This document shows, one piece after another, positions 4,870 to 32,952 of a stretch of DNA of 32,953 nucleotides (positions are counted from its first letter, which is position 1; each line of letters opens with the position of its first letter). The translations under genes were made by a program, and so were the position numbers. This stretch comes from Prosthecobacter sp. (GTDB taxonomy: Bacteria; Verrucomicrobiota; Verrucomicrobiia; Verrucomicrobiales; Verrucomicrobiaceae). The notes beneath the pieces were generated by a model, which ran no database searches, was not told where the DNA came from, and worked only from the letters and a program-made list of their open reading frames with translations. Location of the stretch: assembly GCF_029946185.1 (NCBI RefSeq), contig NZ_JAQSEA010000169.1, positions 1-32,953 of the forward strand, given 5' to 3'.

Positions 4870-6210
4870 ATGCTCAATCTCTACTCACATCCCAGCGGCG
4901 GCTATTGCGATGGTGTGTCGCGTCGAAACTTCCTCAAGATCGGCGGGCTTGCCATGGGCGGGCTGTCGTTGAATGATGTGCTGCGTGCCGAGTCCGCGCA
5001 GAAGACAGGCAAGTCGCACAAGGCCGTCATCATGATCTTCCTGCCCGGCGGCCCGTCGCATCAGGACATGTTCGACATGAAGCCGGACGCGCCGAGCGAG
5101 ATCCGCGGCGAGTTCAAACCCATCTCTACCAACGTCCCCGGCATCCAGATTTGCGAGCATCTGCCGCGTCTCGCCAAGATGATGGACAAGTGCACCCTCA
5201 TCCGCTCGCTGGCCGACTGTGATGTGCGCCACGATGCCTTCCAGTGTCTCACCGGCCGCAACTCCAAGCAGCAACCTCCCGGTGGCTGGCCTTCCTTCGG
5301 CTCCATCGTCTCCCGCTTGCAGGGCAGCGCAAATCCCGCCATGCCGCCCTTCGTCGGTCTCGCGCCAAAGATGGGCCACATGGAATGGGCGCGCACCGGT
5401 GAGCCGGGCTTCCTCGGCGTCGCGCATGCGCCCTTCCAAGCGAATCGCGGCGGTGGCACGGGAGACATGGCGCTTCACGGCATCACGATGGATCGCCTGC
5501 GCGATCGCAAGTCACTGCTCTCCAGCTTTGACAATCTGCGTCGTGACATGGATGCCACCGGCCTCATGGGTGGCGTCGATGTCTTCAATGAGCAGGCGCT
5601 CAATGTGCTCACGAGTCCGAAGTTGATCCAAGCCCTCGATTTGAGCCGTGAAGATCCGCGCGTCGTCGCGCGCTACGGCAAAGGCGAAAACCGCAACCGC
5701 GACGACGGCGGTCCTCGCTTGCCCGAGCACTTCCTTGCCGCGCGTCGTCTCGTCGAAGCCGGCGCACGCGTCGTCACACTCGCCTTCAGCCGCTGGGACT
5801 ACCATTCCAACAACTTCGGCCAGTTGCGCGAAGACCTGCCGCTGCTCGACAGCGGACTCACCGCCCTCATCGCCGATCTGCACGAGCGCGGTTTGGACAA
5901 AGATGTCTCCGTCGTCGTCTGGGGCGAATTTGGCCGCACGCCATTAATCAATGCCAAAGGCGGCCGCGACCACTGGCCGCGCGTCGCCTCCGCACTCCTA
6001 GCCTGCGGCGGCATGCGCCACGGTCAGGTCATCGGTGCCACCGACAAACAAGCGGGCGAGCCCACCGAACGCCCCGTCGCCTTTGGCGAAGTCTTCGCCA
6101 CCCTCTACAAGCAGATGGGCATCGACGTGACCAAAGCCACCCTCACCGATCTCACCGGCAGACCGCAATACCTCGTCGATGGCCATCTTCCGATGCCAGA
6201 ACTGGTGTGA
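4870..6210 (+). CDS. DUF1501 family protein with Tat signal
   Basis: A full-length DUF1501 protein of 446 residues. The N-terminus holds the Tat motif SRRNFLKIGG (Arg18-Arg19) followed by a hydrophobic stretch, so export of a folded protein is expected. The family blocks are FLPGGPSHQDMFDMKPDAP, WGEFGRTP, GGRDHWPRV and LTGRPQYLVDG. It is a near neighbour of the truncated first DUF1501 gene: the two share long identical runs throughout. The start ATG shares the palindrome CATG (4869-4872) with an alternative ATG of the divergent minus-strand gene. No Shine-Dalgarno sequence is seen. The stop codon overlaps the next gene's start as TGATG, suggesting coupling. Family function is unknown; it belongs to the alkaline phosphatase-like superfamily. 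Confidence 0.94.
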   Translation: MLNLYSHPSGGYCDGVSRRNFLKIGGLAMGGLSLNDVLRAESAQKTGKSHKAVIMIFLPGGPSHQDMFDMKPDAPSEIRGEFKPISTNVPGIQICEHLPRLAKMMDKCTLIRSLADCDVRHDAFQCLTGRNSKQQPPGGWPSFGSIVSRLQGSANPAMPPFVGLAPKMGHMEWARTGEPGFLGVAHAPFQANRGGGTGDMALHGITMDRLRDRKSLLSSFDNLRRDMDATGLMGGVDVFNEQALNVLTSPKLIQALDLSREDPRVVARYGKGENRNRDDGGPRLPEHFLAARRLVEAGARVVTLAFSRWDYHSNNFGQLREDLPLLDSGLTALIADLHERGLDKDVSVVVWGEFGRTPLINAKGGRDHWPRVASALLACGGMRHGQVIGATDKQAGEPTERPVAFGEVFATLYKQMGIDVTKATLTDLTGRPQYLVDGHLPMPELV

Positions 6211-9384: not shown

Positions 9385-11430
9385 ATGCCTTCCTCCCATT
9401 TTCAGTTCTCAGTTCTCGGTTTACAATTTGCAGTTCTGCTGGCCTTCGCTGCCCCAGCGCTCTCTCAATCCACCTTCCCATCTCCGACACTCATCTCCAT
9501 CTCCCCGCTCGGCGGCAAGCCCGGCTCCTCAGTCGAGCTCACCCTGCGCGGCGCTGATCTCGATGGCCCGCAGTCCATCCTGCTTAACGAGCGTGTCATT
9601 CCCCTCAAGAGCCTCAAGCCAAACATCTTCAGCATCGCTCTCCCTGCGGACCTCAAACCCGCGCTTTACGATCTCCGCTTCGTCGGCCACTACGGTGTCT
9701 CCAATCCGCGTGTGTTTGAAATCAGCGCACTCGACTCCATCACCTCCCCGGGGACAAACGCGAAGCCCGACCAAGCTCTCAAAGTAGCCGTCGGTTCCGT
9801 CATTCAGGGCGCCTTCAAATCCAACTCACCGCAGTGGTTCACCTTCGAGGCCAAAAAAGGCCAGTCCATCATCGCCAGCTACGATGGCCATCGTTTTGAC
9901 ACCCGCACCGAAATCTCCGGTGCCATCACCAACACCAGCGGCAAAGAGATCGCTCGCATGCGCCATGGCGTCATGCCCTTCGTTCCTCCCGCCGATGGCA
10001 CCTATCGCCTGCGCCTCAATGACCTGATGTACCGTACTGGCGATGATTATGCATTCCGTGTGACTCTGGATCTGATGAAGCTGGCCCCCTTGTCGGGCTC
10101 TCCCTATGGGCCGCATCCCGTGCCTCCCATCAGCGTCAAGATTGGCGATGTCATCCGCGATCAGTTTCCTGAGCAAGGCCAGCCGCGCATGTTCGATCTC
10201 GCTTTTAAAGCGGGTGATCAATTCATTCTCGAAGTTCACTCCCAGCAGCTCGGCCACTCCACCGATCCGCATCTCGTCATCGAAAATCTAAAACCCGACG
10301 GCACTCTCACGCCGCAGGCGGAAGTCGCCGACGCACCCGCCATCACGCCAGCGCCGTACCTCGCTTTCGTAAATCGAGATCCCTCCTACGCCTACGTGGC
10401 CAAGGCCGACGGCACCTTCCGCATCTCCATCAACGACAACTCCGCCACCATGCAGCCCTACGAGCTGCGCATTCTCAAAGAGACACCCAAGCCCGCGTCT
10501 CTCATTGCCCTCAATCCCATCCTGCCCGGAGCCAAGGCCAAGGGGGCCGAAATCGGCAGCGCCAACATCCCACGCGGAGGCATCGCCGCCCTCGAAATCA
10601 TCGCCCCCAATCGCAACGCCCTGAGCGAACCCATCGAGCTCAAAGCCGTCAAGCTCCCCGCAGGCGTCACCTGCCTCGGCGGCTTCATCGGCAAAGGCCA
10701 GTCACTCGGCTACATCGCTTTTCAAGCCAGCGCCGATGCCCCTGCCGGAGCCAGCATTCTCAGCGAGATTCCGCAGAGCCACTACGCGAGCTTCGCCGTT
10801 GCCGACGCCGCCCGGGACAACACTCTCTCCCGCACCACTGGCTCCCCCGCTCTCGGCGTCAGCACGCAGCTGGCCCCCGCTTTCGTGCAGACGGAGAAAA
10901 CAGACATCCTCGAAGTCGCCGCCGACGCCAAGCTCGACATCGCCCTCAAAGTCACCCGTCATGCCGACTTCACCGACGCCCTCAAGCTCAAAGCCCTCGG
11001 CCTCATCGACGTTGCCAAAGCTCCTGAAGCCGACATCCCTGCCAAAGCCGCCGCAGGCAAATTCACCCTCGATGTGAAAGCGCTCAAGCTCGCCCCTGGA
11101 GACTACGGCTTCATCCTTCAAGGTCCCGCGAAAATGAAATTCCGTCGTGGTCTCGAAGAACTCAGTGCCGCCGAATCCGCCGCCAAAAAAGCAGCTGAAG
11201 CTCAAGCCGCAGCCAAACAGCAGCTCGCCACCGCCAATGCCGACGCCACGCCCAAAAAGGCCGAACTCGTCAAAGCCGCCACCGCCGCCCTCAAGTCATC
11301 AGACGCCGCCAAAGCCACCGCCGACAAGCTCGTCAAAGACCTCGCCGCGAAGTCTGCCGCCAAAGAAGCCACCTTCATCGTCTATTCCAATCCCATCCGC
11401 ATCCGCGTGAAGGAGGTCGCCAAGAAATGA
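9385..11430 (+). CDS. Secreted PPC-domain protein with Ala/Lys-rich helical tail
   Basis: A 681-residue exported protein. The ATG at 9385, 11 nt after the previous stop, gives a signal peptide ending ...FAAPALSQ; the frame is open upstream inside the preceding gene, but that part is a shadow. Residues 30-125 look like an IPT/TIG-type beta domain (GGKPGSSVELTLRGADLDG). Two PPC-like beta domains follow at about 133-225 (SPQWFTFEAKKGQSI, PADGTYRLRLND) and 250-360 (FDLAFKAGDQFILEV). Residues 590-670 form an Ala/Lys/Glu-rich helix or coiled coil (AAESAAKKAAEAQAAAKQQL). In this phylum such proteins commonly accompany DUF1549/DUF1553 and PSCyt1 genes, where they may bind partners or carbohydrate; this is inference. 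The start of the signal peptide is coded by a 7-bp tandem repeat. The gene ends in an ATGA overlap with the next. Confidence 0.88.
   Translation: MPSSHFQFSVLGLQFAVLLAFAAPALSQSTFPSPTLISISPLGGKPGSSVELTLRGADLDGPQSILLNERVIPLKSLKPNIFSIALPADLKPALYDLRFVGHYGVSNPRVFEISALDSITSPGTNAKPDQALKVAVGSVIQGAFKSNSPQWFTFEAKKGQSIIASYDGHRFDTRTEISGAITNTSGKEIARMRHGVMPFVPPADGTYRLRLNDLMYRTGDDYAFRVTLDLMKLAPLSGSPYGPHPVPPISVKIGDVIRDQFPEQGQPRMFDLAFKAGDQFILEVHSQQLGHSTDPHLVIENLKPDGTLTPQAEVADAPAITPAPYLAFVNRDPSYAYVAKADGTFRISINDNSATMQPYELRILKETPKPASLIALNPILPGAKAKGAEIGSANIPRGGIAALEIIAPNRNALSEPIELKAVKLPAGVTCLGGFIGKGQSLGYIAFQASADAPAGASILSEIPQSHYASFAVADAARDNTLSRTTGSPALGVSTQLAPAFVQTEKTDILEVAADAKLDIALKVTRHADFTDALKLKALGLIDVAKAPEADIPAKAAAGKFTLDVKALKLAPGDYGFILQGPAKMKFRRGLEELSAAESAAKKAAEAQAAAKQQLATANADATPKKAELVKAATAALKSSDAAKATADKLVKDLAAKSAAKEATFIVYSNPIRIRVKEVAKK
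9403..9437 (+). repeat. Five tandem 7-bp units, consensus CAGTTCT
   Basis: The 35 bases read as CAGTTCT, CAGTTCT, CGGTTTA, CAATTTG and CAGTTCT with no gaps. The array starts 18 nt after the start codon of the PPC-domain gene and codes for part of the h-region of its signal peptide (FSVLGLQFAVL). Period 7 is out of register with codons but preserves the frame over the array. Confidence 0.75.
11410..11417 (+). promoter_or_regulatory. Strong Shine-Dalgarno site for the WD40 gene
   Basis: AAGGAGGT lies 9 nt before the ATG at 11427, inside the last codons of the PPC-domain gene. It supports that start and coupled translation. It stands out because most other starts in the window lack such a site. 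Confidence 0.7.
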
Positions 11431-13574
11431 GAATCATCCTTCCACTCGCCATTCTACATTCGTCATTCGTCATGGCCGCATCGCCAGCGGCCATCGACTA
11501 CGACCAGCAAGTCCGTCCGTTTTTGAAGGACAACTGCATCGCCTGCCACAACAAGACCACGACCAAAGGCGGTCTCAACATGGAGACGCCCGAGCTCATG
11601 GCGAAGGGCGGCGAAAGCGACAAAGGCATCATTCCCGGCAAAGGCGCGGACAGCGTCATGTATCAGGCCGCTGCACACACCTGGGACTCCGAGATGCCGC
11701 CGAAAGGCAACAAAGTCGGCGCAGTGAATCTCAGCGCGGAACAGCTCGCGCTCTTCAAAGCCTGGATTGATCAAGGCGCGAAAGCCTCACCCAAAAAAGT
11801 GCAGGTCATCGCATGGGAGCCGCTGCCAGCAGGCTTGCAGCCCATCTACGCCATCGCCGTTGCACCGCAGGGTGACTTTGCGGCAGCTGCCCGGGCCAAT
11901 CAGATCAGCATCTACCATCTGCCCACGCAAAGTCTCATCACCAAGCTCACGGACGAAACCCTGCTCAAATCCGGCCTCTACAAGCAGCCCGGTGTCGCCC
12001 ATCGCGATCTCGTGCAGGCGCTCGCCTTCAGCCCAGACGGCACCCGCCTCGCCACCGGCAGCTTTCGCGAAGTGAAACTGTGGAAGCACACAACACCCGC
12101 AGCTCCCGCCCTCGCCCCTTCAGCCAAACTCACCGCGACACAGGAAGCCGACAACTCGATCAAACTGACCGAAACCACCGGTGGCAAACTGATCGCCCAC
12201 ATCAAATCCGACCTCACCGCTGAGCAGGCTGTTGCTCAGCACAGCCTCACCGCTGTGCGCGCGGCGCTGGAAGTAACGTATCAAAACGAAGCCATCAAAA
12301 AAACCGAGACCAATGCCACCGAGCAGACGAATCGCCTGAAGAAAGCCAACGAGCTGGCCGAACTCGCGAAGAAGGCGCTCGAAGATAAGAAGAAGGACAT
12401 CAAGCCCAAGTCAGACGCCAACGCCGCTGCGGAAAAGGGCGCAAAAGAAATCGCCGATCAACTCGCCAAGATACCACAAGACAAGCCCGACGCGGCATTG
12501 GCCAAAAAGAACACCGAAGCGCAGGAAAAAGCCACCAAGGCAGCCGCGGATCTCAAGCTCGCGCAGGAATCTCTCACACGTGCCGAAACCGCGATCACGG
12601 ATACCGCGAATGAAATCAAACTCGTCACCGAAAACGAAAAGAAAGCCAAACTGGCCGTCCTGGATGCCAAGGCACATCTCGAAGTGGTGAAGAAGGCAGC
12701 AGTGAAAGCGAATGCGGATCGTGACCTCATCGCCAAAACAATCACAACAGGACTCAAGAAGGCCAAATCACTCCAGTTCTCCGCAAATGGTCTCGAACTC
12801 ATCGCCGAACAGGAAAGCGGTCCGCCGCTCGCCTGGAGCACTGTGAATGGCAAGCCCATCGTTCCCGGTAGCACCAGTGGGACTTGGACCCTAGAACGCA
12901 CCTTCGGCACCGGCGATGGCGAATCTCTGATCACCGACCGTGCGAACAGTCTCGCTTTCAGCCCCGACGGTAAAACGCTTGCCATCGGCAGCGGCGAGCC
13001 TTCTCGCAGCGGCGACATCACCCTGTGGGATGTGGCGACGGGCAAGCTCACCAAGAACTATGCCGAACGCCACCTCGACAGCATCTTCGCTCTCGACTTC
13101 TCGCCTGACGGCAAGCTCCTCGCCTCTGGCGGCGCGGACAAAGCTCTGCGCATCACTGACTTGAGCACCGGCAAAGTCGTGAAGGTTTTCGAAGGCCACA
13201 CCCACCACGTCCTCGGCGTTTCATGGCGTGCTGATGGCCGCCTGCTCGCCAGCAGCGGTGCCGACAACGTCGTTAAAGTCTGGGATTGGACCACCGGCGA
13301 CCGCCGCAAGAGCGTCGATGGCTGGGACAAGGAAGTCACCGGCATCCACTACCTCGGTGCCGCCGATCAGTTCGCCACCAGCGCCGGCGACACCAAGCTC
13401 CGCCTCATCACCAGCGACGGCGGCGTGGTGAAACAATTTCCAGGTGCCACCTCCTTCCTCCAATCCCTCGCCACCACCCGCTCCGGCGATGTGGTGCTCG
13501 GCGGCGATCAAGACGGCATCGTCCGCGCCTGGGATGTCGCTACCGCGAAAGAAATCGCTGTTTTCAAACCCTGA
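11427..13574 (+). CDS. PSCyt1 (cytochrome c-like) and WD40 protein with coiled-coil insert
   Basis: A 715-residue exported protein. After a short signal peptide (RIILPLAILHSSFVMAA) comes a PSCyt1-type cytochrome domain with CIACH (Cys37, Cys40, His41), GGLNMETPE and the distal heme-ligand region EMPPKGN. A first WD40-like blade lies near residues 197-222 (VQALAFSPDGTRLATGS, VKLWK). Residues about 260-440 are a long Lys/Ala/Glu-rich coiled coil. At least five more WD40 blades follow (LAFSPDGKTLAIGSGE, DFSPDGKLLASGGADK, SWRADGRLLASSGADN, GDTKLRLIT, DGIVRAWD). The cytochrome-plus-propeller layout is characteristic of Planctomycetes-Verrucomicrobia; the coiled coil splitting the propeller is less usual. 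The start overlaps the previous stop (ATGA) and has a strong Shine-Dalgarno site. A role in periplasmic redox or scaffolding is inferred. Confidence 0.92.
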   Translation: MRIILPLAILHSSFVMAASPAAIDYDQQVRPFLKDNCIACHNKTTTKGGLNMETPELMAKGGESDKGIIPGKGADSVMYQAAAHTWDSEMPPKGNKVGAVNLSAEQLALFKAWIDQGAKASPKKVQVIAWEPLPAGLQPIYAIAVAPQGDFAAAARANQISIYHLPTQSLITKLTDETLLKSGLYKQPGVAHRDLVQALAFSPDGTRLATGSFREVKLWKHTTPAAPALAPSAKLTATQEADNSIKLTETTGGKLIAHIKSDLTAEQAVAQHSLTAVRAALEVTYQNEAIKKTETNATEQTNRLKKANELAELAKKALEDKKKDIKPKSDANAAAEKGAKEIADQLAKIPQDKPDAALAKKNTEAQEKATKAAADLKLAQESLTRAETAITDTANEIKLVTENEKKAKLAVLDAKAHLEVVKKAAVKANADRDLIAKTITTGLKKAKSLQFSANGLELIAEQESGPPLAWSTVNGKPIVPGSTSGTWTLERTFGTGDGESLITDRANSLAFSPDGKTLAIGSGEPSRSGDITLWDVATGKLTKNYAERHLDSIFALDFSPDGKLLASGGADKALRITDLSTGKVVKVFEGHTHHVLGVSWRADGRLLASSGADNVVKVWDWTTGDRRKSVDGWDKEVTGIHYLGAADQFATSAGDTKLRLITSDGGVVKQFPGATSFLQSLATTRSGDVVLGGDQDGIVRAWDVATAKEIAVFKP
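11447..11474 (+). repeat. Four tandem 7-bp units, consensus CGTCATT
   Basis: The units are CGCCATT, CTACATT, CGTCATT and CGTCATG. The array begins 20 nt after the start codon of the PSCyt1-WD40 gene and codes for the ILHSSFVM part of its signal peptide. The last unit contains an ATG that could serve as an internal start. The same family recurs in reverse at 19111-19131. Confidence 0.72.
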
Positions 13575-17686: not shown

Positions 17687-19108
17687 ATGTTCCGACTTCT
17701 CGCTTTTCTCTGCTTTATCTTTTCCGTCACTCTTCACGCCGAAGATAAACGGCCAAACATTCTCTGGCTCATTGCCGAGGATTTTGGTCTGGATCTAGGC
17801 TGTTACGGCGCCAAGGAAGTTTCCTCTCCAGTGCTGGATGCTCTCTCAGCCAAGGGAATGCGGTTCACACGCTATTACACCACCGCACCCGTCTGCTCGG
17901 CCAGCCGCTCAGCATTCAACACCGGAATGTATCAAACGACAATTGGCGCACACAATCACCGCTCGCATCGTGATGATGGCTATACTTTGCCTGAAGGGGT
18001 GAAGTTGATCAGCGAGCGCATGCGCGAGGCGGGTTACTTCACGGCAAATTTGAAAGAAATGCCCAAGGAGGCGGGGTTCAAAGGCACCGGCAAGACCGAC
18101 TGGAACTTCGAGGTGCCTGCCAAGCCGTTTGATTCATCCAATTGGGATGACTTGAAACAGCACCAGCCCTTTTATGCGCAGCTCAATTTCTCGGAAACGC
18201 ATCGCACCTTCCACGCTCCACCCTATGCTGACCCCGCCAAGGTGGAAATACCGCCCTACTACCCTGACCATGAAGTGACGCGCAAGGACTGGGCGGAGTA
18301 TCTCGATGCCGCGACGGACCTGGACCGGAAGATCGGTAAGGTCATGGAACTGCTCCAACGCGACGGCCTGATGGAAAATACCGTCATCTGCTTCCTCGGC
18401 GATCACGGTGCCGCACATGTGCGCGCCAAGCAGTTCTGCTACGAAGAAGGGTTGATCACGCCGTTCATCATGAGCTGGCCCTCCGGCATTCCCACCCCCG
18501 CTGGTTATGAAGCCGGTAAAGTCAGCGAGCGTCTGCTGATGTCGATCGATCTCACCGCCACGTCCCTCGCATGGGCCGGCATTGCAAAACCGAAGGGCAT
18601 GCAGGGGCAGGTGTTCATGGGAGCGAATGCAGAGCCACCACGCGAGTACGTCTTCGGTGCGCGTGACCGCTGCGACATGACGGTGTTTCGCTTTCGCACC
18701 GTGGCGGATGCGCGCTATCGCTACATTCGGAACTTCACGCCCGACCGGCCCTTCCTCCAGCACAACGCCTACAAGGAGAAGCAGTATCCCGTGTGGAATC
18801 TGATCAAAGAACTCGCCGCGCAGGACAAGCTGACGCCCGCACAAGCCCTGCTGGCAGCGCCGACGATGCCCGAGGTGGAATTGTACGATTTGCAGACGGA
18901 CCCCTTCGAGATCAACAACCTCGCAAAGTCGAACCTGCCTGAGCACCGCGCCGCACGCGAGCGGCTGAGTTCAGTCCTAAACTCATGGATCGAGCGGACG
19001 AACGATCAGGGGCGCATTCCAGAGCCGGAGGAGGTGGCACGAAATGAAGGCCGCACAAAAGCGGCACCACCGGCGAAGCAGGGCAAGGGAAAGAAGAAAA
19101 AGGAATGA
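17687..19108 (+). CDS. Secreted formylglycine-dependent sulfatase
   Basis: A 473-residue arylsulfatase-family protein. ATG 17687 gives the signal peptide MFRLLAFLCFIFSVTLHA; the frame is open far upstream through the palindromic block but that part is not coding. The mature start PNILWLIAEDFGLDLGCYG carries metal-binding Asp residues. The activation motif CSASR (Cys70 to Arg74) fits the C-x-A/P-x-R pattern whose Cys is converted to formylglycine; the modifying enzyme is not in the window. Further family blocks are FLGDHGAAHVRAKQ and the C-terminal LYDLQTDPFEINNLA. It hydrolyses sulfate esters, probably of a polysaccharide (heparan- or N-sulfoglucosamine-type by its overall look). The last residues are Lys-rich. 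The neighbouring esterases suggest joint use on one substrate. Confidence 0.94.
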   Translation: MFRLLAFLCFIFSVTLHAEDKRPNILWLIAEDFGLDLGCYGAKEVSSPVLDALSAKGMRFTRYYTTAPVCSASRSAFNTGMYQTTIGAHNHRSHRDDGYTLPEGVKLISERMREAGYFTANLKEMPKEAGFKGTGKTDWNFEVPAKPFDSSNWDDLKQHQPFYAQLNFSETHRTFHAPPYADPAKVEIPPYYPDHEVTRKDWAEYLDAATDLDRKIGKVMELLQRDGLMENTVICFLGDHGAAHVRAKQFCYEEGLITPFIMSWPSGIPTPAGYEAGKVSERLLMSIDLTATSLAWAGIAKPKGMQGQVFMGANAEPPREYVFGARDRCDMTVFRFRTVADARYRYIRNFTPDRPFLQHNAYKEKQYPVWNLIKELAAQDKLTPAQALLAAPTMPEVELYDLQTDPFEINNLAKSNLPEHRAARERLSSVLNSWIERTNDQGRIPEPEEVARNEGRTKAAPPAKQGKGKKKKE

Positions 19109-19110
19109 GC

Positions 19111-19131
19111 AACGAATTCAGAATGACGAAT
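19111..19131 (-). repeat. Three 7-bp units, reverse orientation of the CGTCATT family
   Basis: On the plus strand the units are AACGAAT, TCAGAAT and GACGAAT, i.e. ATTCGTC, ATTCTGA and ATTCGTT on the minus strand. Array 11451-11471 reads ATTCTAC, ATTCGTC, ATTCGTC in the same phase. It starts 3 nt after the sulfatase stop; a weaker unit, AATGAGC, would include the stop codon itself. Confidence 0.55.
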
Positions 19132-19157
19132 GAGCAGCCCCCGCCATCCTCAAAGAC

Positions 19158-19910
19158 GTGAAGCTGCTCCCCCACCATCGTGCGCATGATGCACGGCACC
19201 TCATCCAGCGCTGGCGCCTGCTCGCACGTACCGCTGGCTGCCGGGTCAAGACCTTGTGCAAGGCTGGGGACCTGCCAGTGATCGTGCTTGAATCGCCAGC
19301 CGCACAGGCGGGAGACCCCGCGGCCTATCTTTCCACCGGAGTGCATGGCGATGAGGCCGGCTCAGCCTGGGGCCTGCTCATCTGGGCGGAAAAGCACGTG
19401 AACGAGATTAAACGCGGGTCATTCCTGATTGCCCCCTGCCTCAATCCGGTCGGCCTCTTGCTGAATACTCGCGCCGATCATCGCGGCTTCGACATCAATC
19501 GCCGTTTTCACGACTCGGCAGATGAAATCTGCGGGCCATGGCAGCAGTGGATCACCGGGCGGGCCATGCGCTTTGGCCTCTGCCTGCACGAGGACTACGA
19601 CGCGCAGGGTGCCTACCTCTATGAGCTCAATCACTCACGCCAAACGGTGGGTCATGAAATCATCGAACGCTGTGCCAGCGTGATCGCGCCTGATCCGCGA
19701 AAAAACATTGAAGGCCAGCGCGCCAACCGTGGCGTGATCCGCCGCCGCACATTGCCTACGCACCTGCCTGGCATGCCTGAAGCTATTGAGCTGCATGTGC
19801 GCGGCTGTCCCCTGACACTGACCTTTGAATCGCCTTCGGAGTTTGATCTCGACAAGCGGGTGCAGGTGCAGGTGAAATTCGTGGAGTCGGCATTGGCCGT
19901 TCTTGTTTAA
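19158..19910 (+). CDS. M14-like zinc peptidase / aspartoacylase-type deacylase
   Basis: A 250-residue protein with the M14/succinylglutamate desuccinylase signature. The zinc-binding HxxE is HGDE (His63, Glu66) in STGVHGDEAGS. NPVGLLLNTR and FDINRRFHD carry the substrate-binding Asn-Arg pair. A third zinc ligand is probably His144 in CLHEDYDAQGAYLYE, and Glu224 in TFESPSEF is the likely catalytic acid/base. The start is a GTG at 19158; there is no in-frame ATG before the catalytic region, so this start is needed. No signal peptide is seen, so it is probably cytosolic, unlike its secreted neighbours. Relatives cut C-terminal residues from peptides or acyl groups from amino acids. The lipoprotein hydrolase follows after 2 nt. 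Confidence 0.87.
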   Translation: MKLLPHHRAHDARHLIQRWRLLARTAGCRVKTLCKAGDLPVIVLESPAAQAGDPAAYLSTGVHGDEAGSAWGLLIWAEKHVNEIKRGSFLIAPCLNPVGLLLNTRADHRGFDINRRFHDSADEICGPWQQWITGRAMRFGLCLHEDYDAQGAYLYELNHSRQTVGHEIIERCASVIAPDPRKNIEGQRANRGVIRRRTLPTHLPGMPEAIELHVRGCPLTLTFESPSEFDLDKRVQVQVKFVESALAVLV

Positions 19911-19912
19911 CG

Positions 19913-20893
19913 ATGTACACCTCACTCATCCATCGCTTGCTTATGTTCTCAGTTTTCGCCGCCTTATCCAGCTGCGCCTCAGTGAAAAAAATGACCGCAG
20001 GCCCTGCTGAGTTGCGTGCCGAAGACTGGGTGAGCTACGATGGCAAAACCATGCCATGCAAAGTGTGGCCGGTGCCTGCCGGCGTGACTCCACGCGGCGT
20101 GGTCATCGCGGTGCATGGCCTGAGCGGCGCGAAGTCCGACTTCTGGTATCTGGGCGAACAACTCCCTCCGCACGGTTACACCGTCTATGCCTACGATCTG
20201 CGCGGGCAGGGGAACGATCCCGTGGCGGCCGAGCGCGGCGATATTATAAAGGCCACCGCCTGGCAGCGCGATCTGGCAACCTTCCACGCGCTGGTGAAGC
20301 GCAGTCATCCCAAGTCACCGGTCTTTTGGTACGGAGAGAGCCTTGGCAGCCTCATCTCCCTGCACACAGCAGCCGATTTGCTCGGGAACCGGTCTGATCC
20401 CGACGGCATCATTCTCGCCTCACCCGTAGCCGGGCTGCGCGTCGCCCTGAGTGGCTTCAAACGTTTCCTGCTCGAAACCGCCGCCAAGCTCTCCCCACGC
20501 TCACGCTACACGCTCGGCGATCTGGCGGGAGTGGATGAATCCAAGATCAAAGTCACGGCAAAATCTACGCATGGCGGTCAGATGGCGGTCACTCCACACC
20601 ACGTCAGCGCCTTCTCGCTGCGCCTGCTCTCAACCATCGGCGGCATGCTCGATGCGAATGCCGAGTCAGCTCATCGTTTGCAAATGCCGGTGCTCTTCGT
20701 CGCATCGCCGAATGATGTGCTGTCTTCAGCCGATCAGATCCACGCCCTGTTCGCCGAAATCCGCAGCAAGGACAAAAAACTGCTCTGGTACACCCGTTCC
20801 TACCATCTCCTGCTGCATGACGTCCAGCGCGAGGAAGTCGTGCACGATGTGACGCACTGGCTGGACCGCCAGGTAGAAGCCATCCGCCGCTGA
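19913..20893 (+). CDS. Lipoprotein alpha/beta hydrolase, monoacylglycerol lipase-like
   Basis: A 326-residue protein with a type II signal: a hydrophobic run followed by the lipobox LSSC, Cys21 being lipidated. VIAVHGLSGAKSDF is the first strand and oxyanion loop, YDLRGQGND a lysophospholipase/monoacylglycerol lipase-type motif, and GESLG the nucleophile elbow (Ser143). SPNDVLSS and SYHLLLHD supply the likely Asp and His. Lipid or acylglycerol ester hydrolysis at the outer or inner membrane surface is expected. It starts 2 nt after the M14-like gene and its stop is 5 nt before the next gene, so these genes probably form one transcript with the two genes downstream. Confidence 0.9.
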   Translation: MYTSLIHRLLMFSVFAALSSCASVKKMTAGPAELRAEDWVSYDGKTMPCKVWPVPAGVTPRGVVIAVHGLSGAKSDFWYLGEQLPPHGYTVYAYDLRGQGNDPVAAERGDIIKATAWQRDLATFHALVKRSHPKSPVFWYGESLGSLISLHTAADLLGNRSDPDGIILASPVAGLRVALSGFKRFLLETAAKLSPRSRYTLGDLAGVDESKIKVTAKSTHGGQMAVTPHHVSAFSLRLLSTIGGMLDANAESAHRLQMPVLFVASPNDVLSSADQIHALFAEIRSKDKKLLWYTRSYHLLLHDVQREEVVHDVTHWLDRQVEAIRR

Positions 20894-20898
20894 CCACC

Positions 20899-21747
20899 AT
20901 GACTCTCGAACATGCCATCCAGGATGCCCTAAGCCGCAGCGAACTCCCGCTGAAGGCAGCGGAGGTCACCAAGCTCGTCAAGCCCTCGGTGGGGCGCACC
21001 GCCACCCCCAAAGCCGTGGCCGCAGCATTGGAAGCACTGGCAGCAGCGGGCGCACTGAACCGCATTGTCGCAGGCACCCGCAGCAAGCCCCTGCCTCTCT
21101 TCACACCCCACAGCCCCGAAGCCGCCGCCGCCGCTTTCGTAAAGTTCTGGGTGCACCCTGCCAAAAAGGAGCAGCAAGCCGTGAAGTTGAAAGCAAAGCT
21201 GCCGTTGGGCCTCCAGCCTCTCTTTGAGACCGCCCTCGCTCAGCTCGTCGCCACCGGCGCTGCATTTGTGCTGCCGGGTGGCAAACGGCTCGTCTATGCC
21301 CGCAAGCCACAGCCTTCCGATCTGCTGGATGCCACGCTAAAGCGTTCCCTTCAAAAGGTCCTCCACGCCATAAACAGCGTCCGCACCCCGCCTGCAACCT
21401 TGGAGGATCTGATCGCATGGCTGGACGCGGCCCCGCCGCCATTAGACTCCATCAGCCTGCCTACCGAAGCAGACCTGCGCGCCTGGTATGATCTCGACCG
21501 CCTCCGCTCCTCCACGGTGATGATCCCCATTCCCCAGACCTTCACCCGTTATAAGGCATGGGCGGCAGAACACGGAGGAGTCGCGGATAGTCAGGTTTTA
21601 CGAAGTTTGATTGAGACTCTTTACAACAATGGGCATCTCCTGTTAGAACCTTGTGAAAGGCCCCAAGACCTCCCGGATCACGATCGTGCCCTGCTTGTTC
21701 CCATGGCTCTCGGCCCACCCGGTTACTCTTGGTGCTGGATTTCTTGA
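20899..21747 (+). CDS. Unknown protein with predicted winged-helix segments
   Basis: A 282-residue protein I do not recognise. It is cytosolic-looking, with no signal or membrane segment. Residues 4-68 (IQDALSRSELPLKAAEV, then ATPKAVAAALEALAAAGAL and a basic GTRSKPLPLF wing) have the helix-helix-helix-wing layout of a winged helix. Residues about 78-133 (FVKFWVHP, PLFETALAQLVATGAAFVLPGGKRLVYA) repeat the same layout. A third helix pair lies at 147-180 (LKRSLQKVLHAINSV, LEDLIAWLDA). The rest has short helices and ends GPPGYSWCWIS. This is read from sequence pattern only. The gene sits 5 nt after the lipoprotein gene and 45 nt before the P-loop ATPase gene. A DNA- or protein-binding partner of that ATPase is a reasonable guess. 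Confidence 0.78.
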   Translation: MTLEHAIQDALSRSELPLKAAEVTKLVKPSVGRTATPKAVAAALEALAAAGALNRIVAGTRSKPLPLFTPHSPEAAAAAFVKFWVHPAKKEQQAVKLKAKLPLGLQPLFETALAQLVATGAAFVLPGGKRLVYARKPQPSDLLDATLKRSLQKVLHAINSVRTPPATLEDLIAWLDAAPPPLDSISLPTEADLRAWYDLDRLRSSTVMIPIPQTFTRYKAWAAEHGGVADSQVLRSLIETLYNNGHLLLEPCERPQDLPDHDRALLVPMALGPPGYSWCWIS

Positions 21748-21792
21748 TCCCGCTCCTCACACACTCGCGAATACTGAACTGATTCCTAGACC

Positions 21793-24027
21793 ATGCCCTC
21801 CTACGCTGACCTGAATCCCTTCATCTCCACAAGCGTGGGCGAAAATGAACTGTGGAATGCAGCCGCCTTTCTCGACGTTCCTTACATTCACTCCGTTCAG
21901 TCTGGCACGTTGCGCATCGCGGTAGATCAGGTGCGTGCCCAGCACCGCAGCCAGGTGCGTTTTGTACGGGGCGCTGGCGGTTCGGGCAAATCCCATCTCT
22001 TCTCGCGGCTTCGGCGTGAGTGTGCGGACAGTATTTTTTATGCCTACGCACCGAATCCGCCGCTGCAGCCGGAGGCCTTGGAAAATTTCATCCTCACACG
22101 CGTCGTCGGCAGCATGCGCCATCCCGCCCGCAGCAAGGAGGGCAGGGAGGCTCCCTACAGTCAGTTGCGCCTGCTCGCCTATGCCCTGCTCAAACCGGTG
22201 GTGGAGCAGAATTTCACCTTTCCTCAACTGCACGAAGCCTGGGCGGGAATCAGACTTGAGACCCGCAAGGACCTGATCCATCACGCCATCCAGCTTCTCG
22301 AAGCCGAGCACCCCATGGTTCCGCGCAGCGTGTTGCGCTGCCTCCTCAATGTCTTGCGTGACGACAAAGAGCACCTCGCCGCGCAGTGGCTTTCAGGTGC
22401 CGCCTACCTCACGGAGAATGAGCTGAAGTTCCTCGGTGTCCCAGAACCTCTGGCTCGTGCGGAAATGGGCGGCGTCATTCAGCTTTTTGGCAAGCTGGCC
22501 TCACAGGTCGGCTCACCCGTGGTCCTGGTGCTCGACCAGCTCGACCTCGTGGTCACCCAGCCTCAGTTTGATGAGATGCAGCGCCTGCTCTTTGCACTCA
22601 TCGATCAAAGTGAAAACTGGGTCGTGCTCATCGGTCTCGTGGTGGAACGTTTCGCCGCATGGGACGCTGCCCTCTCGCAGGCGTTGCGTGGCCGTGTCGG
22701 TGTGCCGGACTCAAATGCACCCCTCGGCTTCCGTCTGCCCGTCATCGACATGCTCCCAATCGCCAACGAGCAAAAGCGCCTCCTTCTCAACTGCCGGCTC
22801 GAAACCCCCGCACTCATCGCGCTGCGTCAGAACGACGGCATCACCTCAGCCATTCATCCGCTGTTGGATGAAGACGTGGCCCGGCTCACCACCGGCGGCG
22901 CAATCTTCCCACGCCATCTCCTGGCCGCTGCCGCAGAGGCCTATGCCATGCGCACCACCACCTCGGCGCTGCCACCCGAAATCGTCGCCGCCGTCGCAGC
23001 GCAGCCAGTCCCTGCCGCAATAACCCCGGTGGCCGTTTCGGTGGTGGATGAAGAGAATGATTTCCCGGTGCTCGCGGCCATACCAATGCCGACACCAGCA
23101 CCGCCGCGGCCCCTGCCACCTCCTGCGGCACTCTCAGGCTCCAAGACAAGCCTGGCGCAGAAAGTGGATGCGCTGCTCCAGCAGGCCATCTCAGCCGCCA
23201 AGGCCGACACCTCTTCACCCAGCGCCATCGATCTTGGCGAACGCGCACGCGATCTCATCGATCTCATGGTTGCCCCTCCGGTTACGATCAGTGAAGGCGA
23301 CATCCATAAAACCTACGACAACTTCGACGGCTCCGACCGCTGGTTCGAATGGGGCGGAGGCAAGGTGCGCATCGTCACCAGCGACTCCATGCGTGGCAGT
23401 TTCATTGCCGTGCTGGAGCGCATCAAGGAAGCCTGTGGCGATACCCTGCTGCTCCGCAATGACATCGCTCCTGTTTCCGGCCAGCTCACCATGGAGCTGC
23501 TCAACGCCTTCAAAGCGAAAAACACCTTCCATCACATTCCCGCAGCCGAGGCCGCCATCTTGGCTGCGCTCGCACGCATCCTCGCCGCCCAGCGCGAAGG
23601 CTCCTACGATCAGTTCGCCACCGAACCACCTGCGACGAAAGACAACGTGCTCGCCGCCTTGCGCGCACACCCCCTTCTGCGTGAACTCAAACTCTGGGAC
23701 ATGATTCAAAAGGTTCAGGCACCAAAACAGGCACCTCCCGGCCCGCATCAGTCTTCCGTGCTCTCATCGATCATCCGGCCCCCGGCTCCACCCATGGCCA
23801 AACCACCGGTGATCCCAAATGCTGGGCTCTCCGCAGTGCCAGGTGCGAAGCCCCCACCCCCACCTGCATACACGGGCGCCATCAAACCGCTCGCCAGGCC
23901 GCCTTCCGCACCCATTTCAAAACCCATCGCTAAACCGCCCGCTCCACCCATGATGAAGCCGCCCACAGGTGTGGCGCGTCCGCCCATGTCCAAGCTGCCG
24001 CCTCCATCGCAAGGCAACGCCGCCTAA
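21793..24027 (+). CDS. P-loop ATPase with proline-rich linker and tail
   Basis: A 744-residue protein, cytosolic by appearance. An N-terminal segment (NPFISTSVGE, DVPYIHS) precedes the ATPase core with Walker A GAGGSGKS (residues 60-67) and Walker B VVLVLDQLD (Asp248, then Asp251). This layout resembles AAA+/STAND/KAP-like ATPases used in signalling and defence, but I cannot place it in a named family. Residues about 400-450 are a Pro/Ala-rich linker. Residues 475-650 form a second domain I do not recognise (WFEWGGGKVRIVTSDSMRG, LLLRNDIAPVSGQLTMELL). The last 90 residues are a Pro/Ala/Lys repeat-rich tail (KPPAPPMMKPP, ARPPMSKLPPP). It follows the winged-helix-like gene by 45 nt and ends just before a strong terminator. 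Confidence 0.88.
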   Translation: MPSYADLNPFISTSVGENELWNAAAFLDVPYIHSVQSGTLRIAVDQVRAQHRSQVRFVRGAGGSGKSHLFSRLRRECADSIFYAYAPNPPLQPEALENFILTRVVGSMRHPARSKEGREAPYSQLRLLAYALLKPVVEQNFTFPQLHEAWAGIRLETRKDLIHHAIQLLEAEHPMVPRSVLRCLLNVLRDDKEHLAAQWLSGAAYLTENELKFLGVPEPLARAEMGGVIQLFGKLASQVGSPVVLVLDQLDLVVTQPQFDEMQRLLFALIDQSENWVVLIGLVVERFAAWDAALSQALRGRVGVPDSNAPLGFRLPVIDMLPIANEQKRLLLNCRLETPALIALRQNDGITSAIHPLLDEDVARLTTGGAIFPRHLLAAAAEAYAMRTTTSALPPEIVAAVAAQPVPAAITPVAVSVVDEENDFPVLAAIPMPTPAPPRPLPPPAALSGSKTSLAQKVDALLQQAISAAKADTSSPSAIDLGERARDLIDLMVAPPVTISEGDIHKTYDNFDGSDRWFEWGGGKVRIVTSDSMRGSFIAVLERIKEACGDTLLLRNDIAPVSGQLTMELLNAFKAKNTFHHIPAAEAAILAALARILAAQREGSYDQFATEPPATKDNVLAALRAHPLLRELKLWDMIQKVQAPKQAPPGPHQSSVLSSIIRPPAPPMAKPPVIPNAGLSAVPGAKPPPPPAYTGAIKPLARPPSAPISKPIAKPPAPPMMKPPTGVARPPMSKLPPPSQGNAA

Positions 24028-24057
24028 GCAGATCCAAAACCACTGAAACAGGTGTCA

Positions 24058-24129
24058 CAGCCTTCATAAGGTAGCCCTGTTCATGCGGAACAGGAAAGTC
24101 CTTGTTGCTCAGCAACAAGGCTGCTTTTT
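24058..24129 (+). terminator. Compound intrinsic terminator
   Basis: CCTTGTTGC and GCAACAAGG form a perfect 9-bp stem with loop TCA (24100-24120), followed after 4 nt by TTTTT (24125-24129). Upstream, CCTGTTC (24076-24082) and GAACAGG (24088-24094) make another 7-bp hairpin. CAGCCTT (24058-24064) can pair with AAGGCTG (24117-24123), closing both into a three-way structure that competes with the base of the second hairpin. It lies between the ATPase stop and the convergent sialidase-like gene. Confidence 0.75.
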
Positions 24130-24145
24130 GAACCTTCGAAGAGAT

Positions 24146-25447
24146 CTAATAAATCAGTCTGCGGAAGTTCTGCACCCGGTGGAACGTGATCAAATTCCCA
24201 TTATGCGCTGAATGCGCATGCTCATTACCACTCCGGCTCACAATGCAAAGATCCTCACCATCAATGCACATCGCCGCATAATGCCGCGACTCTTTCGGCG
24301 TCTCCCCCTGGCACACCAGACCCGCAAAGCACCAGTCGATCATGTTCTTCGAAAAATGCAGCACCAGACGCTGCCTCTCATTGTCCGGCAGCCCCCACCG
24401 CTCCGGCGGCAGACGCTCCGGCCGCGTCATCGAGTCAGTCGATTGCGAGCTAAGCAGCCAGTAGAGTTTTGTCTTCACATCCCACTCCACATGAAAACGC
24501 ATCTGCCCGCCAGGGCAGGGGGCATACAGCATCGGCGTGCCAGCCGGCGTCTTCACCACCGACGTCGTCATGCTGCCATCCTCATTCTCCTTCACTTGCG
24601 CGATGGCCGCATAGTTCGTCATGCCCGTATGCGCGCGCATCCACAGGTGAAAAGTTTTCCCTTCAGGATCGCACCACACATGGTCGGGATCCGTAAACTG
24701 CACCACATTCGTCTCCAGCCACCCAAGCGGCGCGATGCCACGCCCCTTCGGCGGCACCAGAAAAGTCACCTTCTTCCGATCCACCGGATAAAACGGCAGC
24801 CCAAACGCATTTGGCATCTGCGTTTCAGGTGCGTCCTCAAACACCAGTTCACTGGCAAAGGTCCAGTTCGCACGGTCCGTCAGATCAGCATCCGCCCTCG
24901 CCCGCATCAGCACCGGCGCGAGATCCGCCACCTGCCAGCCCTGAATGCCTCGCTTGGGCGCATGCTTCTCCATCACAAGATACACGTTCCCCTTCGCAAA
25001 CAGAACATTGCATGCGGACTGGTGCCAGATGCCCGTGTCATTGAGGAACTTCCGTTCACTCCACGTCACGCCGCCGTCATCGGAACGCACGATGCCCACC
25101 TGCTTGCCACGTCCAAGGATGTACACCGTCTTCCCCGCAACAAACGGTCGCGCAAAACTGAGATCGAAATTCGCCCGATGCACCCAAGTTTTGCCGCCAT
25201 CATCACTGGTAAGGATACGGGACTCATGAAACGGCTTCTTCTCGGGAGTCACCGCCTTTCCCGCAGAGGAAACTTCATGTGTCACAACCATCCTTCCCGA
25301 GGGCAGTCGGCAAATCCCCGGCGTATAGCCATAGATGCGCGCCGGATCTGGCGAAGTCCAGATCGCGACATGATCTTGCGCCAGCGGCCTGAATTGAGCC
25401 GCAAGCGGCAGCGCGATGGCAGCGAACAGTATGAGGAGGCGATTCAT
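24146..25447 (-). CDS. Secreted sialidase-like BNR/Asp-box protein
   Basis: A 433-residue protein starting MNRLLILFAAIALPLAAQ, a signal peptide. ARIYGYTPGICRLPSGRM recalls the start of the sialidase fold (Arg-Ile-Tyr/Pro followed by a Leu-Pro-x-Gly strand). Two Asp boxes follow, SDDGGKTW (81-88) and SDDGGVTW (122-129). The fold is a six-bladed propeller; the usual Arg triad of true sialidases cannot be confirmed by eye, so the enzyme activity is open. A GTG start at 25462 would overlap the upstream stop (GTGA). The ATG at 25447 gives a better signal peptide. It is the last gene of the three-gene minus-strand unit with the FAD-oxidoreductase and FG-GAP genes. Confidence 0.86.
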   Translation of the reverse strand: MNRLLILFAAIALPLAAQFRPLAQDHVAIWTSPDPARIYGYTPGICRLPSGRMVVTHEVSSAGKAVTPEKKPFHESRILTSDDGGKTWVHRANFDLSFARPFVAGKTVYILGRGKQVGIVRSDDGGVTWSERKFLNDTGIWHQSACNVLFAKGNVYLVMEKHAPKRGIQGWQVADLAPVLMRARADADLTDRANWTFASELVFEDAPETQMPNAFGLPFYPVDRKKVTFLVPPKGRGIAPLGWLETNVVQFTDPDHVWCDPEGKTFHLWMRAHTGMTNYAAIAQVKENEDGSMTTSVVKTPAGTPMLYAPCPGGQMRFHVEWDVKTKLYWLLSSQSTDSMTRPERLPPERWGLPDNERQRLVLHFSKNMIDWCFAGLVCQGETPKESRHYAAMCIDGEDLCIVSRSGNEHAHSAHNGNLITFHRVQNFRRLIY

Positions 25448-31350: not shown

Positions 31351-32952
31351 TTATTTCCGCGTTTCAAATGCCCGAAAATAATGCAGCACCGGGTACTCGT
31401 AGCGATTGCTCAGCGCCTCCTTGAGTTTGCCAAGACTTTCAACTCCATGCTCGGCTGCTGCTGCGCGCAGTTCTTCCTCCTCTTCCACGCTGTAGTAGTC
31501 GCGGGGATCTGCCTTCACCTCGCCCTGCTGAATGCCTTGGGCAAGGTGGCTGTGAATGGTGCCGATCACCAGACCTCGCAGCGCCGCGATCTTCTCCGCG
31601 CTGTGTTCCTGTCGGTGCAGACGCAGCGTCTCCAGCACAGTGCCCGTGAGTCCGCCCTCGCTCTTCATCTTCGGCGGTGGTGGCGGCGGAGCTTCCTCTG
31701 CAAATCTCTGCGCCTCATGCACCTCAAGCCACTGTGTGATCGCCCCCATGAAAGCCTCTCCGTAGTCGGCCAGCTTCTGGCTGCCCACCCCAGGGATGGC
31801 AAGAAAGTCCCGCTCAGTGCGCGGATACTCACGACACATATGACGCAGGCTCGTATCGCCAAACACCACATAGGGCGGCACTCCGCGCTCGTCCGCCAGT
31901 TTCTTGCGCAGCACACGCAGCTCCTCGAAAAGCCCCTCGTCACACGCGATGCTGCCCGCTTTGGCCACCTTCCCAGTGCTCGTGCCAGCCTTCACTGCCA
32001 CCGGCGCTCGCGCGAGTATTACCGGCGTCCGGTTCATCAGCGTGGCCAGCCCCTTCTTGGACAGAGCCAGCGTTTGAAATGAATCAGCCGTGGCGTCGAT
32101 ATGGCCCAGGCGGATGAGCTGCCGTCCCAGCACCGCCCATTCCTCACGCGGCATGTCCTTGCCTATCCCATAGGTGCTCAGCTGGTCATGGTACCACTTG
32201 CGGATCTTCTCCGTGTTCGCTCCCGTCAGCACTTCCACCACATGGTTCAGCCCCGTGCTAAAGCCGCTCTTCTGCCGGATGCGAAAGATGCAGCTCAGCA
32301 GCTTCTGCACCTGCGTGGTCGCATCCCACTGCTCGCGCGGCTGCAGGCAGATGTCGCACCCGCCGCAGTTGTCACCCGGCCACTGCTCGCCAAAGTAATC
32401 CAGCAGCGCCACACGCCTGCACTCAGTGCCTTCGGCAAAATCCGCCATCAAACGCATCTGCCGCGCGGCCACCTCCGCCGCCTGCGCATCCGTCATTTCA
32501 TCGAGAAACTTCAGGTTCCGCACCAGATCACCGCGCGAGTAAAGCAGCACGCACTCACTCGGCAGACTGTCGCGTCCGGCTCGCCCCGTCTCTTGATAGT
32601 AGCCCTCGATGTTCTTCGGCAGATCAGCATGAATGACATAGCGCACATCCGGCTTGTTGATCCCCATGCCAAAAGCGATCGTGGCGCACACCACATGCGC
32701 CTCATCACGAATGAACGCCTCTTGGTTCGCCGCACGCTCCTCCGGCTGCAGCCCCGCATGGTAGGCCACCGCCTTCACACCCTCCGCAGCCAGCGCAGCA
32801 GCCAAACTCTCCGCACTCTTGCGCGACTGCACATACACAATGCCCGACTCATTCGGTCGCTGCCTCACAAAATCATAGACCTGACTCGTCGCCTTGGCCT
32901 TTGGCAGCACAGTGTAGCTCAGATTCGGCCGGTTGAAGCTCGCCAGGAAAAA
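31351..32952 (-). CDS. recQ: RecQ family ATP-dependent DNA helicase, N-terminus cut by window edge
   Basis: The open frame continues to the window end, reading FLASFNRPNLSYTV before the GTG at 32910, so that GTG is internal and the helicase motifs I to III are missing. Seen are the later helicase motifs (GIVYVQSRKSAESLA, ATIAFGMGINKPDVRYVIH, YYQETGRAGRD), the zinc-binding cysteines (CGGCDIC), a winged-helix RQC region (GLNHVVEVL, WYHDQLSTYGIGKD), an HRDC domain (LRVLRKKLADERGVPPYVVF, IPGVGSQKLADYG) and a C-terminal helix-turn-helix-like segment ending HYFRAFETRK. RecQ unwinds DNA 3' to 5' in recombination and fork repair. Domain order and length fit a standard bacterial RecQ with a C-terminal extension. 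Confidence 0.95.
   Translation of the reverse strand, partial: FFLASFNRPNLSYTVLPKAKATSQVYDFVRQRPNESGIVYVQSRKSAESLAAALAAEGVKAVAYHAGLQPEERAANQEAFIRDEAHVVCATIAFGMGINKPDVRYVIHADLPKNIEGYYQETGRAGRDSLPSECVLLYSRGDLVRNLKFLDEMTDAQAAEVAARQMRLMADFAEGTECRRVALLDYFGEQWPGDNCGGCDICLQPREQWDATTQVQKLLSCIFRIRQKSGFSTGLNHVVEVLTGANTEKIRKWYHDQLSTYGIGKDMPREEWAVLGRQLIRLGHIDATADSFQTLALSKKGLATLMNRTPVILARAPVAVKAGTSTGKVAKAGSIACDEGLFEELRVLRKKLADERGVPPYVVFGDTSLRHMCREYPRTERDFLAIPGVGSQKLADYGEAFMGAITQWLEVHEAQRFAEEAPPPPPPKMKSEGGLTGTVLETLRLHRQEHSAEKIAALRGLVIGTIHSHLAQGIQQGEVKADPRDYYSVEEEEELRAAAAEHGVESLGKLKEALSNRYEYPVLHYFRAFETRK

Follow-up and report, generated by a model that had tools for sequence, protein, structure and literature searches.

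The HerA/FtsK capture systems described in section 22 of PMC10853773 consist of an Orc/CDC6 ATPase, with an inactive restriction endonuclease (REase) domain ahead of a C-terminal winged helix-turn-helix (wHTH) domain, together with an active REase and HerA/FtsK. A subset of these systems carries a fast-evolving protein with 2 to 4 wHTH domains, and their anti-invader role was inferred from gene context. PMC12839542 likewise describes the repeated joint occurrence of HerA/FtsK and ORC/Cdc6 ATPases with nucleases and fast-evolving wHTH proteins. Here, we analyzed a two-gene unit of Prosthecobacter sp. at positions 20899 to 24027, on the forward strand, of a stretch of 32,953 nucleotides (the window), which is the entire contig C169 (NZ_JAQSEA010000169.1) of the 6.19-Mb assembly G000 (GCF_029946185.1; 317 contigs, 95.86% completeness). 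Gene A (20899 to 21747; identified from its open reading frame [ORF], an AlphaFold2 model, VIA-align, and a conserved C-terminal block) encodes a winged-helix protein of 282 amino acids. Gene B (21793 to 24027; ORF, AlphaFold2 model, fold search, and alignments) follows after 45 nucleotides and encodes an Orc/Cdc6-type AAA+ ATPase of 744 amino acids with a second domain and a Pro-rich tail. The two ORFs, called originally from the letters alone, behave as genes: the listed relatives have no internal stops in either, and the ratios of nonsynonymous to synonymous substitution (dN/dS) are low. On balance, we consider it probable that the pair shares its ancestry with the capture systems and has been kept, or put to a new use, as an AAA+ platform on DNA, which has a winged-helix protein as its reader and recruits effectors in trans.

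The likeness to the capture systems has several parts. B has an Orc/Cdc6-type AAA+ module, as seen in fold matches and in an AAA+ profile link to motor-linked homologs. Its predicted alpha/beta domain lies at the position of the inactive REase and is a candidate for that identity. A is a predicted winged-helix partner that evolves faster than the folded parts of B (dN/dS of 0.196). However, the ATPase of the window is predicted to end in a Pro-rich tail in place of the C-terminal wHTH, and the pair is not in a mobile neighborhood, having a fixed locus and dN values correlated with those of its neighbors. Because several features that define a capture system were looked for and were not found here, we do not count A-B as a member.

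Other described systems resemble the pair in single components. BrxC/BrxD of BREX are, according to PMC12839542, AAA+ proteins of the Orc/Cdc6 clade, and B reached 21.7 of the 22.2 bits required by PF10923, which is below the cutoff. B scored only 14.2 bits against the NCBIfam BrxD model (NF033438; cutoff, 350), and PglZ (PF08665) had no match in G000. PglZ was present in 8 of the 48 genus genomes and did not track B (3 of 21 carriers versus 5 of 27 noncarriers). SspB-SspC of the Ssp phosphorothioation system, going by the description in PMC10853773, also join a multi-winged-helix protein to a Cdc6/Orc-clade ATPase, but we recognized no sulfur modification genes among the window genes scanned. 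The transposition ATPases TnsC/MuB are among the AAA+ fold matches of B; in contrast to these systems, we saw no transposase in the scanned genes of the window, a search that did not extend to element ends, and A-B is inherited with its neighbors. In the open-licence literature, as covered by titles and the starts of abstracts, we saw no other description of such an A-B pair or of its RuvB-linked version.

The AlphaFold2 model of B, built from 19 sequences, has an AAA+ module up to residue 390 (21793 to 22962, also delimited by fold search and alignments), a variable Pro-rich linker (391 to 450), an alpha/beta domain (454 to 642), and a low-confidence tail (646 to 744). The best solved fold matches of residues 1 to 390 were ORC/Cdc6/Orc2 chains: 7jgr (Z 16.4; 242 residues aligned, 3.8 Å), 1fnn (Z 15.4), and 1w5t (Z 15.0). 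TnsC/MuB ranked after them (Z 12.5 to 13.7). BrxC (9zll) matched with Z 12.2 and a root mean square deviation (rmsd) of 8.2, and STAND proteins came lower in the list (plant NLR resistosome 6j5t, Z 12.9; MalT 8bob, Z 12.2). By its modeled fold, the ATPase of B is nearest to Orc/Cdc6 and then to TnsC/MuB. The original prediction of clear Walker motifs was borne out. Walker A (GAGGSGKS, residues 60 to 67) and Walker B (VLVLDQLD, residues 243 to 249, of the form hhhhDQ) are conserved near and far, and B shares the extended Walker B form hhhhDQ[LV][DE], Arg 301, and a sensor-2-like Arg 374 with its distant homologs. As to the suggestion of a STAND/KAP-like ATPase, STAND proteins are among the lower-ranking fold matches, the Pfam matches of B to AAA_16, BrxC_BrxD, NACHT, and nSTAND were all subthreshold, and KAP was seen only in a homolog from Pseudanabaena, not in B. 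B may thus be STAND-like, but with subthreshold profile matches we did not assign it to the KAP/STAND NTPases. Sequence searches gave no credible solved relative of B.

Distant homologs link this AAA+ module to DNA motors. In a set of 968 ORFs and 800 shuffled sequences, the AAA+ profile of B gave 60 bits (E 2e-17) for a protein encoded on a Pseudanabaena plasmid, 35 bits (E 1e-9) for one of G067, and 27 bits for one of G064. Below these came plasmid-borne ATPases of Synechococcus (10 and 7 bits) and a Xanthobacter protein (9.6 bits). Alignment of B with the G067 protein by hhalign gave 96.7% over 336 columns. On the Pseudanabaena plasmid (L124:8123-13082), a 266-amino-acid ORF is followed by the Orc-like ATPase, which has a Pro-rich stretch of its own, and then by a PDDEXK_1-FtsK_alpha-FtsK_SpoIIIE protein. 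The G067 homolog is fused to a HerA-like motor (PADLOC mad8, E 1.2e-22) and lies beside a 298-amino-acid ORF and a DUF559 ORF. These arrangements correspond to the one that section 22 of PMC10853773 sets out for the capture systems. The Xanthobacter plasmid homolog is short (455 amino acids), lies near an integrase gene, and came up in a search with the G067 protein (E 3e-8); as a match to the profile of B it was rejected, being no better than the doubtful Synechococcus ATPases. This homolog also gave two prophage rows at E 1e-3, which carry annotations as replication-initiation/transposition-B or AAA ATPases. Judged by eye, the ORFs that adjoin the Nonomuraea and Xanthobacter homologs have nuclease-like ends.

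A protein related to a different family of DNA motors accompanies B in three genomes of other genera. Directly after B in G002, G003, and G004 lies a RuvB-like AAA+ protein with about 300 extra N-terminal residues (L047:11449-13332, L048:11550-13691, and L049:7383-9182; these ORFs overlap B since they are listed from the first possible start codon). RuvB_C matched at E 4e-10 in G004 and 3e-13 in G002, the NCBIfam RuvB model gave 61 and 85 bits against a cutoff of 282, and the proteins of G003 and G004 share 90% identity. Five A-B genomes of the genus tested for this protein gave no strong match and one weak row (in G039), and hhalign detected no homology between A and the RuvB-like protein. 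Candidates for a motor acting in trans in the genus itself were also considered. A HerA-like protein of G000 (G000:C209) was set aside, as it is also present in noncarriers and hence is not specific. A protein of about 1215 amino acids with an FtsK/SpoIIIE domain at 663 to 834 (L172:154-3801, G000:C26), distinct from the FtsK match that almost every genome of the genus has, was seen in 18 of 21 B carriers versus 6 of 27 noncarriers (Fisher p 2.5e-5). Phylogeny explains this co-occurrence equally well, because 5 of the 6 noncarriers with it have an AstE most like that of the carriers, and we did not retain it as the trans motor.

The separate second domain and Pro-rich tail first suggested for B are both present in the model. 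The alpha/beta domain (residues 451 to 645, 23143 to 23727), delimited by model elements and conserved residues, runs helix, strand, short helix, two strands, helix, strand, helix, strand, helix. This order of secondary structure is what suggests that the domain is possibly an inactivated restriction endonuclease fold, and no E-x-K motif is visible in it by eye. The tail (residues 646 to 744, 23728 to 24024; defined by model, composition, and alignment) is predicted to be disordered and is basic, with 32 Pro, 10 Lys/Arg, and no acidic residues among 99. It is variable except for its LPPPS end, which is found in 16 of 16 genus rows of the B alignment and in 0 of 3 rows from other genera; in the G039 row (L075) the tail is shorter and less Pro-rich. 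The conserved end is the best candidate for a partner contact. The B relatives of G002 to G004 have a different C-terminal segment, to which hhalign found no homology of A.

A had been described as having two or three winged-helix-like segments. Its AlphaFold2 model, from 16 aligned sequences, has a mean pLDDT of 82. Residues 1 to 72 matched solved winged helices (Zur, PerR, Fur, Zalpha, and others) at Z 9.4 to 12.2 among the rows listed, so that the first wing is firm in the model. More wings are suggested by the order of elements and by structural rows that span residues 1 to 133 (UFL1-DDRGK1, 8b9x; Z 10.1, rmsd 3.8) and 1 to 252 (SelB, 1lva; Z 10.4 but rmsd 11.9), and winged-helix-like segments are likely at about 73 to 133 and 190 to 282 of the model. 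The third is weak because the last 40 residues, despite their high conservation, have a block pLDDT of 47 to 59. No credible solved relative of A emerged by sequence; the best rows were m4D2 (E 0.0046 over 33 residues) and STAT3 (0.075).

A co-occurs with B across the family. Matches to B occurred in 26 of 68 family genomes: 21 of the 48 of the genus, the strong matches G002, G003, and G004, and the weak matches G064 and G067. A matched in 22 of the 68, every one of which also has B, and was absent from all 42 genomes without B. B was found without a match to A in G025, where the contig starts inside B, and in G002, G064, and G067. A lies directly upstream of B in all 20 B-carrying genus genomes in which the upstream side is visible. 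Genome-wide searches of G003 and G004 found A (40 to 41% identity) at a locus separate from that of B, and the fact that these two genomes keep both genes although they are unlinked supports joint action. The conservation check proposed with the original prediction thus came out in favor of the pair; B did not turn out to belong to a housekeeping family usually found without A, and A did not lack a winged-helix fold in its model. The unlinked A homologs (L174:7080-7898 in G003:C13 and L173:1453-2253 in G004:C259) both adjoin a Kelch-like repeat protein, as judged by eye. None of the window's genes stands alongside them, except for weak sulfatase matches in G003. In a phylum-wide draw, B was present in 2 of 387 genomes, namely, the window's own and G002, both already rows of the search profile. 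Relatives of the locus were labeled Prosthecobacter, Verrucomicrobiaceae, or other Verrucomicrobia, with two Akkermansia (two close-family peptides, one contig scan).

Both genes are under purifying selection. From 16 genomes and 120 pairs (15 genomes for the sulfatase), with synonymous distances near 1 that make the values rough, the median dN/dS was 0.070 for B residues 1 to 390, 0.108 for residues 451 to 645, 0.196 for A, 0.210 for the tail, and 0.311 for the linker; the neighboring genes gave 0.092 (AstE), 0.113 (lipase), and 0.068 (upstream sulfatase). A is the fastest-evolving folded part (0.196 versus 0.07 to 0.11 for the B domains). In pairwise comparisons, the dN values of A and of the individual parts of B are correlated with those of AstE (0.80 to 0.91), the lipase (0.74 to 0.85), and the sulfatase (0.64 to 0.75), and both genes resemble their neighbors in GC and GC3.

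The locus itself begins with an AstE/M14-like deacylase gene (19158 to 19910, forward strand), the probable start of the transcript, which is present in 45 of 48 genus genomes. It is followed after 2 nucleotides by an alpha/beta-hydrolase (Hydrolase_4) lipase gene (19913 to 20893, forward strand; assigned by Pfam match and gene order), and A begins 5 nucleotides after that. The lipase-A gap is -4 to 20 nucleotides in 16 relatives, so that, with the window, 17 of 21 genus carriers have this arrangement. G032 and G039 carry A-B without the lipase, and G025 and G052 cannot be judged. AstE and the lipase are adjacent without an A-B match behind them in all 10 noncarriers inspected, out of 27, and in G032. 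Taken together, the shared locus, the AstE-lipase pairs without A-B, and the dN correlations indicate that a core operon gained or lost the A-B pair, which was thereafter passed on together with the operon. In this clade, the pair is a stable chromosomal element at the end of an AstE-lipase operon. The tight AstE-lipase and lipase-A gaps also uphold the earlier suggestion that the transcript containing A-B may start further upstream, at the AstE-like gene; no sigma-70-like promoter was found in 18900 to 24300. A terminator had been proposed to close the unit, and indeed an intrinsic-terminator-like hairpin of 9 pairs with a T-run lies at 24100 to 24120 (forward strand). It is the longest stem of a scan that gave 6 rows overall (2 of them this hairpin on both strands) versus 4.5 ± 1.9 in shuffles. 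The claim that the surrounding enzymes are all secreted did not hold: by eye, the AstE/M14-like protein has no signal peptide, and the lipase is lipoprotein-like.

Elsewhere around the unit, a sulfatase-like gene directly follows B in 14 of 15 relatives, the exception being L041, whose contig ends soon after B. In the window, no such gene is present after B (24028 to 24145), and a BNR-repeat gene on the opposite strand comes next. Three DUF1501 paralogs are clustered at 23 to 1186, 1422 to 2900, and 4870 to 6210, and a Planctomycete-type cytochrome c protein (PSCyt1) that has WD40 repeats at its C terminus (11427 to 13574) comes after a PSCyt2-PSD1 gene (7175 to 9373). On the minus strand, a RecQ-type helicase gene (31351 to 32910; Helicase_C, RecQ zinc, RQC, HRDC, and HTH_40) is truncated by the contig end.

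Several observations weigh against reading A-B as a platform related to the capture systems. Only one of five runs of the B model was good (mean pLDDT of 70, versus 39 to 52 for the others). With Foldseek on its own, no PDB structure matched B at E ≤ 0.001; the top row was Cdc6/Orc1 (1.2e-3), with RUVBL and Cdc48 rows close by. Domain 2 of all 7 members scanned lacked a relevant Pfam match (the one row was TMP-TENI, E 0.085), and the profile of this domain gave no score at all on the distant homologs. The profile of A did not rise above noise on the ORFs beside the distant ATPases (best E 75), and hhalign of A against these ORFs, a weak test that sets a shallow profile against single sequences, was also null; we keep the correspondence as a positional analogy only. 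G002, which is 99% complete, has B but no match to A genome-wide, and a fixed locus with slow evolution is unlike a typical defense island. Finally, the scan of 26 window ORFs, which covered A and B and included some ORFs that have no Pfam match, recognized neither HerA/FtsK nor a restriction nuclease, so that an effector step has no direct support.

An alternative is that the pair is an active anti-phage or anti-plasmid system of two genes, in which A would sense invader DNA and B would assemble on it and then block or kill alone. The pairing of a DNA-binding or adaptor protein with a STAND/KAP-like ATPase had been presented originally as a common plan of defense and signaling systems. That plan is visible at the level of the family, where distant homologs lie beside nuclease domains and FtsK/HerA and where PMC10853773 infers such a role, but nothing at this locus displays it. 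The weak AAA_16, BrxC_BrxD, and NACHT matches of B, the STAND proteins among its fold matches, and its patchy presence in the family (26 of 68 genomes) are consistent with a two-gene defense system. However, A had no PADLOC match and the single one of B was to BrxD at E 0.041, which does not identify a known defense system, and no effector domain was recognized. The position of the unit is shared by 17 of 21 genus carriers, purifying selection on it is strong, and no relative was found in the viral contigs scanned with two peptide patterns, which also led us to discard a viral origin. We regard self-sufficient defense as rather unlikely, whereas an anti-invader role of A-B in the broader sense is plausible from the family context. 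A related possibility, to which we give more credit while holding it tentatively, is a domesticated anti-invader ATPase: in one Verrucomicrobiaceae lineage, an Orc/Cdc6-winged-helix capture module would have lost its motor and nuclease and, with a Pro-rich tail that bears a conserved docking motif, would recruit a cellular DNA motor in trans, while the sister genera keep a RuvB-like motor next to this ATPase.

The same linked motors could also point to a loader, for example, of RuvB- or FtsK-type motors, that serves replication, repair, or segregation in Verrucomicrobiaceae and has no defense role. The Orc/Cdc6 fold of B, the RuvB-like gene beside B in three genomes of other genera, the position of B after a der-like gene (by eye) in two, and the co-occurrence of the second FtsK-domain protein fit such a loader, although phylogeny may explain the last. 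On the other hand, 27 of 48 genus assemblies have no B match, and B is hence not essential; no replication gene adjoins the pair in the window, though the RecQ-like gene lies 7 kb off on the other strand. A loader of this kind seems to us improbable. More improbable still is that A-B regulates its own locus by controlling the AstE, lipase, and sulfatase genes with which it is probably cotranscribed. The winged-helix nature of A, the tight spacing to the lipase in 17 genomes, and the conserved order AstE-lipase-A-B would suit a regulator. However, AstE-lipase persists without A-B in the 10 inspected noncarriers, A-B stands away from the operon in G032 and G039, A and B are apart in G003 and G004, and an Orc-like AAA+ protein of 744 amino acids would be unusual as a transcription regulator.

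For the DNA-bound platform that we favor, the following mechanism may be envisaged. The Orc/Cdc6-type ATPase of B would assemble as an oligomer on DNA in an ATP-dependent manner, at a site read by the winged helices of A. The alpha/beta domain, possibly an inactivated restriction endonuclease fold, would serve as a binding scaffold, and the basic Pro-rich tail would, through its LPPPS end, dock a partner encoded elsewhere, such as a translocase, a nuclease, or a segregation factor. Because the cluster lacks HerA/FtsK and a restriction nuclease, the active partner would be encoded elsewhere or the pair would act by occupancy.

Several predicted DNA defense systems of bacteria combine an Orc/Cdc6-type ATPase with a winged-helix partner. 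A minimal pair that has no motor beside it, is under purifying selection, and is kept jointly across 22 genomes, even when unlinked, is easier to test. If the domesticated reading were true, it would widen motor capture beyond HerA/FtsK to a bacterial ORC-like platform with exchangeable motors. The RuvB-linked relatives in the family suggest that such a platform can work with more than one kind of DNA motor.

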